40,317 bases of DNA, from assembly GCA_947474495.1 (NCBI GenBank), contig CANJIM010000022.1, positions 1-40,317 of the forward strand. Direction: 5' to 3'. The translations under genes were made by a program, and so were the position numbers. The DNA is from Rhodospirillaceae bacterium. Lineage in GTDB: Bacteria; Pseudomonadota; Alphaproteobacteria; SMXQ01. Below, in pieces: positions 20,775-28,581 of the stretch (position 1 is the stretch's first letter; every line of letters begins with the position of its first letter). A model generated the notes under the pieces. The model was not told the DNA's origin. It made no database searches and was given only the letters and a program-made list of their open reading frames with translations.

Positions 20775-22982
20775 TTACTTCGCCAATGGATCCGGCCGCA
20801 GCTGGAAGTGCGTCGCCAGCGGCTTGGTGCCCTTGCCGCCTTCGATCAGCCAAGGTGTGCGATCGCCGTTCGTCGTCCACAGGCCACGACCTTTCCAACC
20901 GGCATTGGGATCGTCAATGCGGCCGTCGAAGCCCTTGGCGTAGAAGCCGAGCGGATAGGGCACGCGCAGGTTGACCATCTTGCCGTCCTTCAGCGCGACG
21001 AGGCCGTCGTTGAGGTTGGCGGTGGACATCGGCACATCCTCGCCGAGGCCGAAGGTGTTGTGCTGATCGACCCAACTGTAATAGCTCGACTCGGCGCTGT
21101 TATCGCCGATGCCGTCGAAACCGGGGCCGGGATATTTGTAGAACGTCCAACCCTCGGGGCAGTGGTTGCCCGTCGCCGCCGGGCCATTGAGCGGGCCCTT
21201 GCACTTGGCGCGGTCGAAGGCGCCCATGTGGCCCGAGGCGAGCGAGACCCACACCACGCCCTTCTTGTCGATGTCAGCGCCGCGCGGGCCGAAGCCGGGG
21301 GCCGGCACGTTGTAGATCTCGGCGAGCGCGGTATGCGTCGGGTCCGAACCCGGCGCGATGCGCACCACAGCGCCGGGGTTGGAGCGGATCGAGCCCCACA
21401 CCGAGCCGTCGGTCGGATGCGGCATCACGGCATAGAAGCTCGCCGAGATGCGCTTATCCTTGCCAGGATCGACCGCGACGTTGGGCTCGACATAGTCGTC
21501 GCGCTTGCCGTTGCCGTTGGTGTCCAACACCATCGGCGTCCAGCCCTGCGATTTGACGATGTCGCCGGTCTCGTCGAGCATCTTGGTGTTGATCCAACCG
21601 ATCACCTGGCCGCCGCCGCTCGTCCACAATGTGTCGTTGGCGTCATAGCCGAACTGCAGATGGTGCGTCTGGAAACAGGTCTGCAGCGGCGTGTATTTGC
21701 CGGTCTTCGGATCGTACATCGTGACGCGGCGCTGCGAACGGTCGAGCGGGAAGACCTTGGCCGACGGATGGTCCGAACCCTTCTTGCAGAAATCCGGGTT
21801 GTCCGGCCCGTGGCCGGTCGCCGACAGCCACAGCCGGCCGTCGCGGCCGAACATGGAGTTGTGGTTGTTGGCCTTGGTGTCCCAAATTTTCTCGTCGCCC
21901 CAATAGGCCGAGGGCTGCAGGCTTTCGGCCGAAGCGGCATGGCCGGGGCCGAGCGCTTCGGGCGTGCCGGCTGCCACCGTCATGCGAAAGGACGACGTCG
22001 TGTTCTTCACCGGATCGAGGATCGGCACCAGGTCCGAGCTATATTCCGGCGAGCCGTAGAGCGGGCCGTAGGCGTTCACCGTCGGGAAGCGCCGATCGGA
22101 GGCGATCAGGTCGTGAACGTATTTCTTCGCCTCCATCCACTCCCACATGGTGACGACGATGTTGCGTTCGGCGCCTTGCGGCCGCTCGGGTTTGGTCTTC
22201 GGCAGCTCGCCCTTGGCGACGCGCGCGGTCCAATCGCCGAACTGCTGATAGGGCACGCCGCCGAGCTGGCCGGCGAGAATATTGACCATGCTTTCGCCGG
22301 CCTGGCCCGCTTGCGTGCGGCGCATCCAGGCGTCGGCATGGTCGGGGAATTCTTTCAGAAACTCCGGCGGAATGGTGCGCGTCGATTGCTGGCCGAGCTG
22401 ATGGCAGCCGACGCAGCCGTTGTTCTTCATCAGGTTCAGCCAGTCGGACTGCTTGATCGCCGCCGGGATGTCGCTCTTGCCACCGAATTGGTCGGCCGCG
22501 GGAATCTTCAGCATCGAATACCAATAGATCGCCGGATAAATCTTCGCCGCCGTCGCCGCGTCGGGCGCGGCGCTCGCCCGGTGGTTCACCAGCTTGCCAG
22601 GCTCGGACTTCACCTTGGGGGAATCGACGAGACCGTAGCCGCGCACCCACAGGTCGTACGTGGCCTTCGGCAGATCGGGGACGACATAGCGGCCCTGGTC
22701 ATCGGTGACGACGACGCGGATGAAACGCGTCGGCAAGTCGCGCGTCTCGGCAATGACCCAGACGCCGGCCTCGGGACCGTTCGGGCCGCTGACGACGCCG
22801 CCGATATCGTCGGCGTCGATGGCGACCGTCTGCTGCGCGACGGCGCCGCCGATCCACAGCGGCGAGACTGCCACGGCGGCGACGAACAGCAACAGGCAGA
22901 GCCCGCCCAGCAGATGGCGCGGCTGCAGCAGCGAGCGATGATGCGCGAAACGCGGACGCACGGATGGCGTGGGCTTGGTCAT
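20775..22982 (-). CDS. Exported protein with carboxypeptidase-regulatory-like segment, c-heme motif and beta-propeller-like repeats
   Basis: The 735-residue product starts at 22982 with a basic N-terminus and a hydrophobic signal/anchor (about 24-46, GGAVAQ|Q). Residues 57-118 (GGVVSGPNGPEAGVWVIAET... DDQGRYVVPDLP) look like a carboxypeptidase regulatory-like beta domain. A single CxxCH heme-binding motif follows at 190-194 (NNGCVGCHQLG). The remainder repeats a motif of the type G.LW.S (DGRLWLSATG, NDTLWTSGGG, DGSVWGSIRS, KGVVWVSLAS, GRGLWTTNGD), like streptogramin-lyase/Vgb-type propellers. GGGGGAGA about seven nt before the ATG supports the start; the ATG at 23069 would add 29 residues. 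It is likely a periplasmic monoheme protein. Substrate and electron partner are unknown. Confidence 0.8.
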   Translation of the reverse strand: MTKPTPSVRPRFAHHRSLLQPRHLLGGLCLLLFVAAVAVSPLWIGGAVAQQTVAIDADDIGGVVSGPNGPEAGVWVIAETRDLPTRFIRVVVTDDQGRYVVPDLPKATYDLWVRGYGLVDSPKVKSEPGKLVNHRASAAPDAATAAKIYPAIYWYSMLKIPAADQFGGKSDIPAAIKQSDWLNLMKNNGCVGCHQLGQQSTRTIPPEFLKEFPDHADAWMRRTQAGQAGESMVNILAGQLGGVPYQQFGDWTARVAKGELPKTKPERPQGAERNIVVTMWEWMEAKKYVHDLIASDRRFPTVNAYGPLYGSPEYSSDLVPILDPVKNTTSSFRMTVAAGTPEALGPGHAASAESLQPSAYWGDEKIWDTKANNHNSMFGRDGRLWLSATGHGPDNPDFCKKGSDHPSAKVFPLDRSQRRVTMYDPKTGKYTPLQTCFQTHHLQFGYDANDTLWTSGGGQVIGWINTKMLDETGDIVKSQGWTPMVLDTNGNGKRDDYVEPNVAVDPGKDKRISASFYAVMPHPTDGSVWGSIRSNPGAVVRIAPGSDPTHTALAEIYNVPAPGFGPRGADIDKKGVVWVSLASGHMGAFDRAKCKGPLNGPAATGNHCPEGWTFYKYPGPGFDGIGDNSAESSYYSWVDQHNTFGLGEDVPMSTANLNDGLVALKDGKMVNLRVPYPLGFYAKGFDGRIDDPNAGWKGRGLWTTNGDRTPWLIEGGKGTKPLATHFQLRPDPLAK

Positions 22983-23248
22983 GGATGTCTCCCCCTCTGA
23001 ACGGCGCTCCTGCGATGAAGGAGTGTCCGTCGATCCCTGTGGCGCGCAATGCAAGGGCGCGCTTGTCATTCCATCCGCCTTTTCGGCGGTTTCTGGCCGC
23101 TATTAGGCGGGCCGCAGCGGTAGAGAGTCAAGCCGGCCAAAAGCGGGATTCCGCCACAAATACGGGACGCTGTTGCACGAGAATCGCCGCAATAGCCGGC
23201 TTGCCCGCGCTGTGATGCCGGGACCCGTTACCGTCTAAGCCGCGCCGA

Positions 23249-25172: not shown

Positions 25173-26246
25173 ATGCATAAGATAATCCTGCGTTCGTTGA
25201 GCTATTGCCTTCTGATAACGGCCGCCACGATCTCGCAGATGATTGCCCCATCAACCGCCAAGGCCGATGAGGCGTCCGATCGCAAGGTCGCAGAGTTCTA
25301 CAAGGGCAACACCGTCTATGTCGTGATCGGCTCGGCCGTCGGCGGTGGCTTCGACTTCTACGGCCGCGCCGTCGGTCGCTTCATGTCGAAATATTTGCCC
25401 GGCAATCCCACCGTCGTGCCGCAGAACATGCCGGGCGCCGGCAGCTTCACGGCGGCGGCCAAGGTCGCCGTTAACTCGCCGCAGGACGGCACCTATATCG
25501 GCGCGATCCAGCCGACCGCGATCCTCGATCCCGTCCTCGGCGATCCCAGCAAGGGCGCCAAGCGCCTGGACCTCGCTTTCCTCGGTAACGCCGCCGAGAA
25601 CGTCGAGGGCTGCTTCCTGCGCACCGACGCGCCAGCCAAGTCCTTCGCCGACATCTTCAACACCGAGGTCGTCCTCGGCGCCTCCAACGGCGCCTCGTCG
25701 ACGCGCGAATATCCCTCGATCCTGAAGAACGTGCTCGGCATGAAGTTCAAGATCGTCACCGGCTATCCCGGCAATGCCGACATCTTCCTCGCGATCGACC
25801 GCAACGAGGTGCATGGCATGTGCGGCTCCAGCATCCTCAACGTCATCGCCTCGCGGCCGCTCTGGTTCTCCGACAATATCGTTCGGATGGTCTCGCACCA
25901 GGGCATCAAGCCGTTGCCGGTGATGAAGGAGACTGAGGGCGTTCAGCCCAGCCTCAACTATGCCAAGACTGAGGAGCAGAAGCAGATCCTCAATCTCTAT
26001 GATCTGGGTGGCCGCTTCGGCCGGCCCTGGGTGACCGGAGCGACCGTGCCGGCAGAGCGGATCGCCGCGCTGCGCACCGCCTTCATGAAGTCGCTCAACG
26101 ATCCCGAACTCCAGAAGGAAGTCATCGCTCGCGGCCTCGAGGTCTCGCCGATGAGCGGCGAGGAAGTCCAAAAGCTCGTCGCCGAGGTCTATGCCATGCC
26201 GCCCGAGCTGCTGAAGAAGACCCGCGTCGCTCTCGGATACGAATAA
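25173..26246 (+). CDS. Bug/TctC-family periplasmic solute receptor, copy 3
   Basis: The 357-residue secreted receptor has a signal peptide of about 31 residues (ending in TAKADE) and the TctC fold: YVVIGSAVGGGFDFYGR, VVPQNMPGAGSFT, SPQDGTYIG. It is the close paralogue of copy 2 at 19558, sharing NAAxNxEGCFxRTDAPAKSF, a second Cys (HGMCGSS) and the near-identical C-terminal helix VQKLVAEVYAMPPE. One 32-nt stretch is identical in DNA. GGAG lies six nt before ATG 25173. A strong terminator follows. No membrane components of a TTT transporter are present, so it is an orphan receptor or uses a distant TctAB. Confidence 0.88.
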   Translation: MHKIILRSLSYCLLITAATISQMIAPSTAKADEASDRKVAEFYKGNTVYVVIGSAVGGGFDFYGRAVGRFMSKYLPGNPTVVPQNMPGAGSFTAAAKVAVNSPQDGTYIGAIQPTAILDPVLGDPSKGAKRLDLAFLGNAAENVEGCFLRTDAPAKSFADIFNTEVVLGASNGASSTREYPSILKNVLGMKFKIVTGYPGNADIFLAIDRNEVHGMCGSSILNVIASRPLWFSDNIVRMVSHQGIKPLPVMKETEGVQPSLNYAKTEEQKQILNLYDLGGRFGRPWVTGATVPAERIAALRTAFMKSLNDPELQKEVIARGLEVSPMSGEEVQKLVAEVYAMPPELLKKTRVALGYE

Positions 26247-26272: not shown

Positions 26273-26309
26273 GCCGCCGGCGATGCCCAAGCTCGCCGGC
26301 GGCGACTTT
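26273..26309 (+). terminator. Rho-independent terminator after Bug receptor copy 3
   Basis: An 11-bp stem GCCGCCGGCGA (26273-26283) and TCGCCGGCGGC (26293-26303) is followed by GAC and six T. Its left arm and loop start are nearly identical to the terminator at 28539. Confidence 0.85.
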
Positions 26310-26462
26310 TTTACCCACTCCCGTCGCATGCGGCACGGCGGCCTTCGCCAGACCGCCGCTCTCTCCCAACTTGATGATTTCGTCTGACGAACACGCTTTT
26401 TCGTTCGCTGGCGCAGCGGCTTGTTCAGCCAAGCCTGGAGGCCACGCAAGATCACAGTGAGC

Positions 26463-26491
26463 TTGACCTTGCGCCCCTGCCAGACGAGAAT
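26463..26491 (+). promoter_or_regulatory. Candidate promoter of the AAA+/bicupin unit
   Basis: TTGACC (26463-26468), 17 nt, then GAGAAT (26486-26491) make a plausible sigma-70 promoter 65 bp before the ATPase start. A GANTC site (26488-26492) overlaps the -10. Other AT-rich hexamers downstream at 26505-26535 are alternatives. Confidence 0.4.
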
Positions 26492-26556: not shown

Positions 26557-27411
26557 ATGCGTGCGAATGAAGGACATCATCATCTTTCGGGCGGCAACGT
26601 CGTCAGCTTTGAAAAGCTTGCCGTGCTGTTTGGCGGCAGCGCCGACGCCGTCACCCAGACAACCGACTTGGTCGGCGCTTTCTATACGGACCTGCTCTCC
26701 GAACTGACAGCAATCACCGAACATCAGTGGCGCTCGGACTCGCCGCGCGGGCTCATCAAGGGCTTCATGCTGAGCGGCCCGCCGGGCACCGGCAAGACCA
26801 CGATGGCCAAGCGCCTGACTTATGAGCTCGGCCGCAAGTTCCAGGCCGAGGACGAAGACGCGCCGCCGGTCGTGATGGCCTTTATCGACGGCGGCGAAAT
26901 CTCCCGTTCGCGCTACGGCGAAAGCGAAGAGCGCATCCGCGACATCTTCATGCATGCCAAGTCCGGCTTCACGGCGGCCGGTCAACGCTCGGTGTTGCTG
27001 TTCGACGATGTCGAATCGATTTTCATGTCGCGCGGCAGCCAGCACGCCAAGGAATGGCACTTCTCGCAAGACAGCGTGTTCTTTCACTCCATCGACGAAC
27101 TCGACACCTCGAAGTCCATCATCGTGCTCACGAGCAACCGGCCGGACCTTATCGACGAAGCGATCCGCGATCGTTTCCTGAGCTACACGGTCGACTATCC
27201 GGATCTCGACACGCTCATCCAGATGATCGCGCAGATTCCCGTGCTGCAGGAGCTCTCCGGCAAAGAGCATGCGGCGATGAAGGACGAGTTGGTCAAAGCC
27301 GTCAAAAAAGGCGAGGTGCGCAGCATGCGCGACGCTCAGCGTTTCGCGCTGCGCCGCTATGTCGCCAAATTGCTGAACCGCAAATCCATGGCACTGGAGC
27401 ACACGGACTAA
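26557..27411 (+). CDS. AAA+ ATPase of unknown role, paired with a bicupin
   Basis: The 284-residue single-domain AAA+ protein has Walker A GPPGTGKT (74-81), Walker B VLLFDD (146-151), sensor-1 LTSNRP (191-196) and arginine-finger candidates in IRDRF (203-207). A short N-terminal part (about 1-66) and a small helical C-terminal lid complete it. There is no DNA-binding, protease or transmembrane domain. Small AAA+ proteins of this size often act as remodelling chaperones or activases for one partner enzyme (CbbX and NorQ are known examples). GAGG about 10 nt before the ATG supports the start at 26557. The bicupin gene follows 80 bp later on the same strand before a common terminator, so the cupin is the likely client; this is inference. 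Confidence 0.88.
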   Translation: MRANEGHHHLSGGNVVSFEKLAVLFGGSADAVTQTTDLVGAFYTDLLSELTAITEHQWRSDSPRGLIKGFMLSGPPGTGKTTMAKRLTYELGRKFQAEDEDAPPVVMAFIDGGEISRSRYGESEERIRDIFMHAKSGFTAAGQRSVLLFDDVESIFMSRGSQHAKEWHFSQDSVFFHSIDELDTSKSIIVLTSNRPDLIDEAIRDRFLSYTVDYPDLDTLIQMIAQIPVLQELSGKEHAAMKDELVKAVKKGEVRSMRDAQRFALRRYVAKLLNRKSMALEHTD

Positions 27412-27469
27412 ACGATAATCACTGAACGACCGAGTTACTGAGCTACCGCGAATTGAACGAAAATCACTG
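27411..27469 (+). repeat. Direct repeats between the ATPase and bicupin genes
   Basis: AACGATAATCACTG (27411-27424) and AACGAAAATCACTG (27456-27469) differ at one base, and a shortened AACGAGAATG overlaps the bicupin start codon region. They may bind a regulator or reflect a small duplication. Confidence 0.5.
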
Positions 27470-27491
27470 GGCTAAAAAGGAATAAACGAGA

Positions 27492-28508
27492 ATGGCTAAG
27501 AATTTCTACGACGACTGGTTGCAAGCGCCGAACCAGATTCAGGACCAACTCGAAGCGACGCTGCTCGTCGCGCGCGACCAGGACATCCCCTGGGTCTCGA
27601 CGCCCCAGGACGTCAAGACAAAGCTGATGGTCGCCAACCACCTCGGCTTTTCGACCATGGGCAGCAATGTGCTCAAATCGGAGATCCCCGTCGGCTGGCA
27701 TAGCGGCAAGCACCGCCACGGCGAAGAATGCATGCACATCCTCGAAGGCGAAGGCTTCAGCATCATCGAGGGCCAACGCTTCGACTGGCACAAGAGCAGC
27801 ACCATCCACATTCCCTTCTGGAAGACGCACCAGCATTTCAACACCGGCGATGTCCCGGTGCGGATCGTTCACGGCATGGTCTTCGATCTCGAGCGCTACC
27901 TGCGCATCGCGCGCATCGAGCAGATCGAGACCTGCGGTCCCAACGATCCGTCGATGATCGCCGCGATGCCCAAGGAAACGTCGCAATATTATCCGAATGG
28001 CGCGCGCGCGGTCATTCACCTGGAGCAGGCTCCGACCAACAAGGAGAAGCTCCCGGAAGGCGAAAGCTACAATCCGCAAGGCGCCATCGCCGCGACCAAG
28101 AACCAGCACGACTTCTCGAACTACCTGATCGTGCCGAAGAACGGCTTTCGCGCCACCAGCGTCGCCATGACCAACCGCTGGATCGAGCCGGCTGGCCACG
28201 CGAGCGGCAAGCATAAGCACCTCGAAGCGGTGGTCTATGCGGTCGAGGGCCACGGCCATACCGAGCTGAACGGCAAGCGCGTGCCGTGGGATGCCGGCGA
28301 CGTGCTCTATGTCCCGCCCGCCATGTGGGAACATCAGCACATCAATGAAAGCACCGAGTCGATCACGCAACTCCGCATCGGCTTCAACATCCGCATGTGG
28401 GTGACGTCGATCTGGCCGGAAGGCTTCACCAGCACGCGCATCTACGACGAGGACGGCAACCCGATCGAAGCCGGCCGCATCGTGCGCAAGCGCGAGCGCG
28501 AGCGCTAA
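27492..28508 (+). CDS. Bicupin protein (gentisate-dioxygenase-like, two metal sites)
   Basis: The 338-residue protein has two cupin barrels. The first (about 55-135) has ligands His74 and His76 with Glu78/79 in KHRHGEEC and a distal His in THQHF (113-115). The second (about 215-300) has His241 and His243 with Glu245 in SGKHKHLEAV and a distal His in EHQHIN (281-283). Both sites look intact, so both may bind Fe(II), Mn or another metal. Gentisate and 1-hydroxy-2-naphthoate dioxygenases share the layout but usually keep only one active site; the substrate here is unknown. There is no signal peptide, so it is cytoplasmic. The first codon lies at 27492 with AAAAGGAA about 10 nt upstream. It is cotranscribed with the AAA+ gene and ends at a shared terminator. 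Confidence 0.85.
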   Translation: MAKNFYDDWLQAPNQIQDQLEATLLVARDQDIPWVSTPQDVKTKLMVANHLGFSTMGSNVLKSEIPVGWHSGKHRHGEECMHILEGEGFSIIEGQRFDWHKSSTIHIPFWKTHQHFNTGDVPVRIVHGMVFDLERYLRIARIEQIETCGPNDPSMIAAMPKETSQYYPNGARAVIHLEQAPTNKEKLPEGESYNPQGAIAATKNQHDFSNYLIVPKNGFRATSVAMTNRWIEPAGHASGKHKHLEAVVYAVEGHGHTELNGKRVPWDAGDVLYVPPAMWEHQHINESTESITQLRIGFNIRMWVTSIWPEGFTSTRIYDEDGNPIEAGRIVRKRERER

Positions 28509-28534: not shown

Positions 28535-28572
28535 AAAAGCCGCCGGCGATGCCTAGCTCTCCGGCGGCTTTT
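28535..28572. terminator. Bidirectional terminator between bicupin and mutY
   Basis: AAAAGCCGCCGG (28535-28546) pairs with CCGGCGGCTTTT (28561-28572) around a 14-nt loop. A-run on the left and T-run on the right allow use by both convergent genes. Part of the sequence repeats the terminator at 26273. Confidence 0.85.
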
Positions 28573-28581
28573 CTTTGCGCG

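Follow-up and report, generated by a model that had tools for sequence, protein, structure and literature searches.

Does the small AAA+ ATPase gene that immediately precedes a bicupin gene in a Rhodospirillaceae genome encode a dedicated helper of the enzyme beside it? The pair lies in a 40,317-nucleotide stretch of DNA (GCA_947474495.1, contig CANJIM010000022.1, positions 1 to 40,317, forward strand), hereafter the window. Rubisco, B12 enzymes and nitric oxide reductase each have known helpers that are dedicated to them and driven by ATP. We are aware of none that serves cupin dioxygenases, which carry out aromatic ring opening across much of the carbon cycle and when pollutants are degraded.

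Organization of the gene pair

The ATPase and bicupin genes are encoded on one strand with a gap of 80 bp (Table 1). Terminator-like hairpins flank the pair, and folding analysis of the region between the genes found no structure and no terminator hairpin, so the sequence can fairly be read as encoding a transcript private to these two genes. The hairpin 3' of the bicupin gene is absent from the list of a simple terminator scan, probably owing to its longer loop. A weak promoter-like site is present at 26463-26491. An earlier note on this DNA had placed an AAA+ gene at 26557 and a bicupin gene ending at 28508; both open reading frames were confirmed there. Its claim that transcript and terminator are common to the pair alone fits the flanking hairpins, and the two intact metal sites it described in the bicupin are borne out by six histidines invariant in 10 of 10 sequences.

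Table 1. Features of the ATPase-bicupin locus, with coordinates in the window.
Feature	Coordinates	Strand	Remarks
TctC (Bug)-type substrate-binding protein gene	25173..26246	+	Recurrent neighbour with its own terminator; PF03401 E=2e-5, just under cut-off
Terminator-like hairpin and T-run, between TctC gene and pair	26273..26312	+	Hairpin at 26273-26303; perfect arms of 11 bp, -28.2 kcal/mol, z -5.2
AAA+ ATPase gene, single ring, classic clade	26557..27411	+	284 aa; PF00004 E=9.8e-22
His7-His8-His9, ATPase N-terminus	26575..26583	+	Invariant in 7/7 relatives
Walker A GPPGTGKTT, residues 74-82	26776..26802	+	Invariant in 7/7
Pore-loop-1 region RSRYGESE, residues 117-124	26905..26928	+	Invariant; SRYGESE aligns with classic KYVGESE (Afg2)
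Walker B LLFDDVE, residues 147-153	26995..27015	+	D150 and D151 invariant
RGSQHAKEWHFSQDSVFFH, residues 159-177, around pore loop 2	27031..27087	+	Longest fully invariant run in the ATPase
Sensor 1 LTSNRPD, residues 191-197	27127..27147	+	Invariant
Arginine-finger candidates R204, R206	27166..27174	+	Invariant
Bicupin gene, gentisate-dioxygenase-like	27492..28508	+	338 aa; PF07883 (Cupin_2) E=4e-17, two stretches
N-terminal cupin metal site HRH (H74, H76)	27711..27719	+	Invariant 10/10; with H113/H115 at 27828-27836
C-terminal cupin metal site HKH (H241, H243)	28212..28220	+	Invariant 10/10; with H281/H283 at 28332-28340
Charged C-terminal tail of bicupin, residues 318-338, core PIEAG	28443..28505	+	Conserved
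Terminator-like hairpin 3' of bicupin, common to pair	28535..28573	+	-25.4 kcal/mol, 1/200 shuffles as good

Classification of the ATPase

Profile and motif comparisons assign the ATPase to the classic, CDC48-like AAA clade. Its nearest NCBIfam profiles are ARC, CDC48 and CdvC, and its nearest solved relatives are Afg2, CDC48 and NSF. The features of classic AAA proteins are present, namely Walker A and B, sensor 1 and the paired arginine fingers of PF00004, with DD rather than DE in Walker B. Asp151 stands where Afg2 and other classic AAA proteins carry Glu; despite this, ATP hydrolysis is likely. A domain search detected no second ring, protease, DNA-binding domain or known N-domain. Approximately 65 residues precede the AAA core, and the three consecutive histidines within them are a possible metal-binding motif. 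Residues 159-177 are a candidate client contact. These features fit a ring remodeller, which by analogy with the family would form a hexamer and thread its client. The structure model is of moderate quality (pLDDT 62.4), and its fold matches are to generic AAA proteins (spastin, FtsH, VCP and PCH-2).

Other assignments were considered and rejected. No CbbX profile is found among the 25 best NCBIfam matches, and the neighbouring gene encodes a bicupin, not Rubisco, in all relatives, which argues against a red-type Rubisco activase. MoxR/NorQ membership was rejected on the best Pfam match, to PF00004 (78 bits); AAA_5 scores just 23.6 bits, over the P-loop, and no profile of the MoxR/NorQ kind is among the best 25. 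Inspection by eye recognised no VWA-like ORF beside the pairs, and the window pair is bounded by terminators. A phage origin was likewise rejected, the ATPase matching generic AAA profiles only.

The bicupin and its likely activity

Most likely, the bicupin acts as a ring-cleavage dioxygenase of the gentisate/salicylate type that depends on Fe(II) and takes a carboxylated substrate. The sequence-level mark of gentisate-dioxygenase-like bicupins, two cupin barrels and one or more 3-His metal sites, is present, and both sites (H74/H76/H113 and H241/H243/H281) are invariant among the 10 sequences aligned. Gentisate and salicylate dioxygenases have a three-His ligand set of this kind in their catalytic site (PMC4019311). 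The nearest solved structure is the gentisate dioxygenase 3bu7 (E=1e-12). The 5-aminosalicylate 1,2-dioxygenase profile matches at E=3e-13 with 50 bits against a cut-off of 650, and the gentisate 1,2-dioxygenase profile TIGR02272 at E=2e-8 with 33.4 bits against a cut-off of 442. The window protein is similar to gentisate, 5-aminosalicylate and salicylate dioxygenases in its bicupin architecture, its HxH...H sites, its nearest structure and the hydrolase genes beside some family members (below), whereas it scores far below their cut-offs, has both metal sites intact and is accompanied by an ATPase. The structure model (pLDDT 41.5) is too poor for use. The C-terminal tail with its PIEAG core, conserved also in bicupin copies without a nearby ATPase gene, is a candidate handle for threading.

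In the gentisate pathway, a fumarylacetoacetate-type (FAA) hydrolase acts after ring cleavage. FAA hydrolase genes adjoin two bicupin copies that have no neighbouring ATPase gene (L045 and L046), a setting that a gentisate-like ring-cleavage enzyme would be expected to have. An HpcH/HpaI aldolase gene is located near the L019 and L046 bicupins, and MmgE/PrpD genes are found near those of L019, L046 and L045.

Conservation and linkage of the pair

With the ATPase as query, a scan across 84,980 species genomes identified seven loci in six genomes, all related; two of the loci (L013 and L018) belong to a sister MAG from the same genus as the window. The pair is carried by uncultured bacteria related to rhizobia. 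A bicupin gene directly adjoins the ATPase gene in all seven ATPase-bearing genomes (the window's and the six others), and because of this recurrence the adjacency is beyond chance; the bicupin gene is the sole gene to adjoin the ATPase gene in all relatives. At L014-L017, the bicupin gene follows the ATPase gene on the same strand after a gap of 26-36 bp, while at L019 the genes converge and their stop codons overlap. The outer neighbours vary from locus to locus. Even the two copies in the sister MAG, 92.9% identical across their overlap, have different surroundings and differently placed TctC genes. A TctC homologue is found near the pair at L013, L014, L016, L018 and L019, the last a remote one (23% identity). 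Both genes are under purifying selection, with dN of 0.10 and dS of 0.83-1.01 between the window and L014.

In a tree of the cupins, that of L019 groups with those of L045 and L046, both from loci without a nearby ATPase gene, and the cupins of the same-strand pairs form a separate clade (support 100/99 in each case). Because L019 combines a convergent arrangement with a cupin from a different clade, the pairing appears to have either outlived rearrangement or arisen twice, and inheritance of a single intact operon would be insufficient to account for it.

Co-occurrence was assessed in two samples, 385 genomes from across the class and 397 genomes from the order of L019's genome, and wherever one gene was found in either sample, the other was found too. 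The positives consist of one genus in the one sample and one genome in the other, so this lends the pairing weak support. The earlier note had proposed co-occurrence as the check on its idea and had likened the ATPase to CbbX and NorQ. With the genes adjacent in 7/7 genomes and neither alone in the two samples, functional pairing is well supported; as family membership the likeness fails, since the profiles do not match and the class is CDC48-like.

Adjacency of the ATPase gene is not obligatory for the bicupin, because four bicupin copies (L020, L044, L045 and L046) lie on contigs without an ATPase gene in their vicinity. One of these is a second bicupin in the window's own genome (L020:4623-5639), 75% identical and flanked by amidase and TctC genes on a 6.2-kb contig that lacks the ATPase gene; two extra copies are found in genome G391 and one in G393. 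Every genome with extra copies also holds one ATPase-cupin pair, a pattern with an ascertainment bias, as these genomes were found via the ATPase. One ATPase could act in trans and serve several bicupins.

EutA-like ATPases beside other bicupins

The window's genome also encodes bicupins of approximately 380 aa, of a different subfamily, that adjoin EutA-like ATPases (PF06277, E=6e-114 and 5e-121). The textbook client of EutA, the reactivase of ethanolamine ammonia-lyase, is EutB. EutA-like genes are present in 10/10 genomes searched, with four in the window's genome, and EutB was found in 1/10 of them. A bicupin match is located within 1.5 kb of 14 of the 27 EutA-like loci, many of which are cut by contig ends. 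All four plasmids with a bicupin of the ~380-aa type (three from Sinorhizobium, one from Phyllobacterium) carry an EutA-like gene adjoining it. In Phyllobacterium zundukense, the gene run comprises a Tct transporter, a ThDP enzyme, an oxidoreductase, the bicupin, EutA and LysR.

Nearly all bicupin-adjoining EutA-like proteins have an N-terminal histidine motif, MHDxDxDHxH or a longer His/Asp-rich run (e.g., L056, L071, L077, L085 and L086); several, not all, of those without a bicupin neighbour lack it (e.g., L063 and L065). Bicupins in this lineage are thus repeatedly accompanied by ATPases of the reactivase type that belong to two unrelated folds, and the independent EutA-bicupin pairing strengthens the activase idea for the AAA+ protein, of which this recurrence is the strongest indirect support. 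We tentatively extend the argument to bicupin dioxygenases as a class, which may need ATP-driven reactivation and may have recruited both an AAA+ ring and an actin-fold EutA-like reactivase, with the His-bearing N-termini perhaps delivering iron. This broader proposal remains doubtful.

EutA-like genes beside a bicupin are located at L023:4708-6228, L024:6466-8028 and L050:3802-5664 in the window's own genome and at L085:9013-10518 on the Phyllobacterium plasmid. Two different EutA-like genes occur head to head at L057/L066 (G393 contig 159) and L062/L068 (G392 contig 192), one encoding a His-rich N-terminus and the other lacking it.

Proposed function and alternatives

A functional association between the ATPase and the bicupin is highly probable, and it is probable, with less assurance, that the ATPase acts directly on the bicupin. 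We lean slightly toward a two-component unit of a ring-cleavage bicupin and a dedicated AAA+ activase or remodeller. In such a unit, the AAA+ protein would assemble as a hexameric ring, engage a conserved segment exposed on the bicupin and spend ATP on opening or remodelling the enzyme. This would clear a dead-end ligand, or a metal site that is oxidised or wrongly occupied, and iron would be loaded or reloaded. The genes, their motifs, the conserved linkage, the co-occurrence and the pathway context are observed; we infer direct binding and metal reloading and, from the family, the hexamer and threading. Repair and first metal loading would carry the same signature and look alike in sequence. 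An activase role is plausible by analogy, and activase-like working is reasonable because green-type Rubisco activase arose from the same p97/CDC48-like clade (PMC5437159).

The ATPase might instead serve the same pathway rather than the bicupin itself, for instance as a remodeller of a transporter or a regulator, or in protein quality control under substrate stress, and the frequent third neighbour encoding a TctC-type binding protein, the four bicupin copies without a nearby ATPase gene and the varied clients of classic AAA proteins are compatible with this. Yet only the bicupin adjoins the ATPase throughout, the window's TctC gene lies beyond a strong terminator and that of L019 is remote; we regard this as unlikely. 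A metal-insertion chaperone acting once at maturation, rather than a repeated repair activase, would account for the invariant HHH at the N-terminus of the ATPase and for the His-containing N-termini of EutA-like ATPases that adjoin bicupins. Three histidines are, however, a slight motif, and to our knowledge bicupin dioxygenases such as gentisate dioxygenase function without a named insertion ATPase. NorQD, an AAA+ machine that drives insertion of non-haem iron, offers a precedent and works with a VWA partner (PMC13036017), whereas inspection by eye revealed no MoxR-type VWA partner here. We regard the insertion-only reading as rather improbable.

Neutral co-inheritance, in which unrelated genes were kept together by chance or by hitchhiking on an island, draws on the small size and rarity of the family and on the integrase-like ORF at L019. 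It is largely refuted by linkage across rearrangement: the outer neighbours vary, the L019 pair was retained through a change of orientation, and dN/dS is low for both genes. We consider it very improbable. An anti-phage system of the TRIP13/HORMA or IetAS type is scarcely credible. PADLOC profiles for TRIP13 (E=1e-14) and IetA (E=9e-14) do match the ATPase, but they score no better than CDC48/ARC and cover the AAA core only; the bicupin has no PADLOC match, none of the nearby genes was recognised as HORMA, CD-NTase or subtilase, and the ATPase is partnered with a metabolic bicupin whose neighbourhoods are catabolic. A defence assignment was therefore rejected, as the matches are confined to the core domain and the required partner gene was not recognised.

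Comparison with known systems

The proposed activase unit recalls the Rubisco activases, where a CbbX or CbbQ gene sits with one metabolic enzyme and Rca acts on one, as here an AAA+ gene adjoins a bicupin gene; green-type Rca and the window ATPase both fall in the classic p97/CDC48-like clade (PMC5437159). It differs in that the client is a bicupin and not Rubisco, with neither a CbbX nor an Rca profile among the best matches, and in that CbbQO has a VWA partner, none being seen by eye for the window ATPase. ATP-driven maturation of a non-haem iron enzyme, as by NorQ/NorD, is one of the two roles considered for the window ATPase, which unlike NorQ is not of the MoxR class and has no VWA gene seen alongside. 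EutA likewise is an ATPase whose reactivating role is dedicated to a single enzyme, and EutA-like proteins adjoin bicupins in the same genomes; EutA, in contrast, has the actin/Hsp70 ATPase fold rather than AAA+, and the bicupins beside it are of another subfamily.

A literature search, mostly of non-subscription journals, found no description of an AAA-cupin or EutA-cupin system. The pairing is confirmed and would plausibly constitute an undescribed activase system, an enzyme-specific ATPase helper with a new class of client. A bicupin activase, if real, would explain a hidden energy cost of ring-cleavage pathways and offer biotechnology a means of sustaining the activity of such enzymes. It would also give a testable function to a gene for which the usual annotation is 'AAA family ATPase'. 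The EutA parallel suggests that, among proteins carrying the annotation ethanolamine ammonia-lyase reactivating factor, many have another client.

Genomic setting

Plasmid searches found no members of either the ATPase or the bicupin family; the matches were generic AAA proteins approximately 30% identical with unrelated neighbours, and remote cupins. Near the convergent pair, an integrase-like ORF (L019:171-1385) lies approximately 0.5 kb from the ATPase gene and suggests an island. At L017, a Rhizobiales-like pair is found on a contig titled Syntrophobacter and labelled Thermodesulfobacteriota, which also carries a UvrB-like gene; this placement reflects either mis-binning or transfer. Within the window, positions 20775-23069 on the minus strand encode a 764-aa protein that has no NCBIfam matches and whose only match is a weak one to CarboxypepD_reg.
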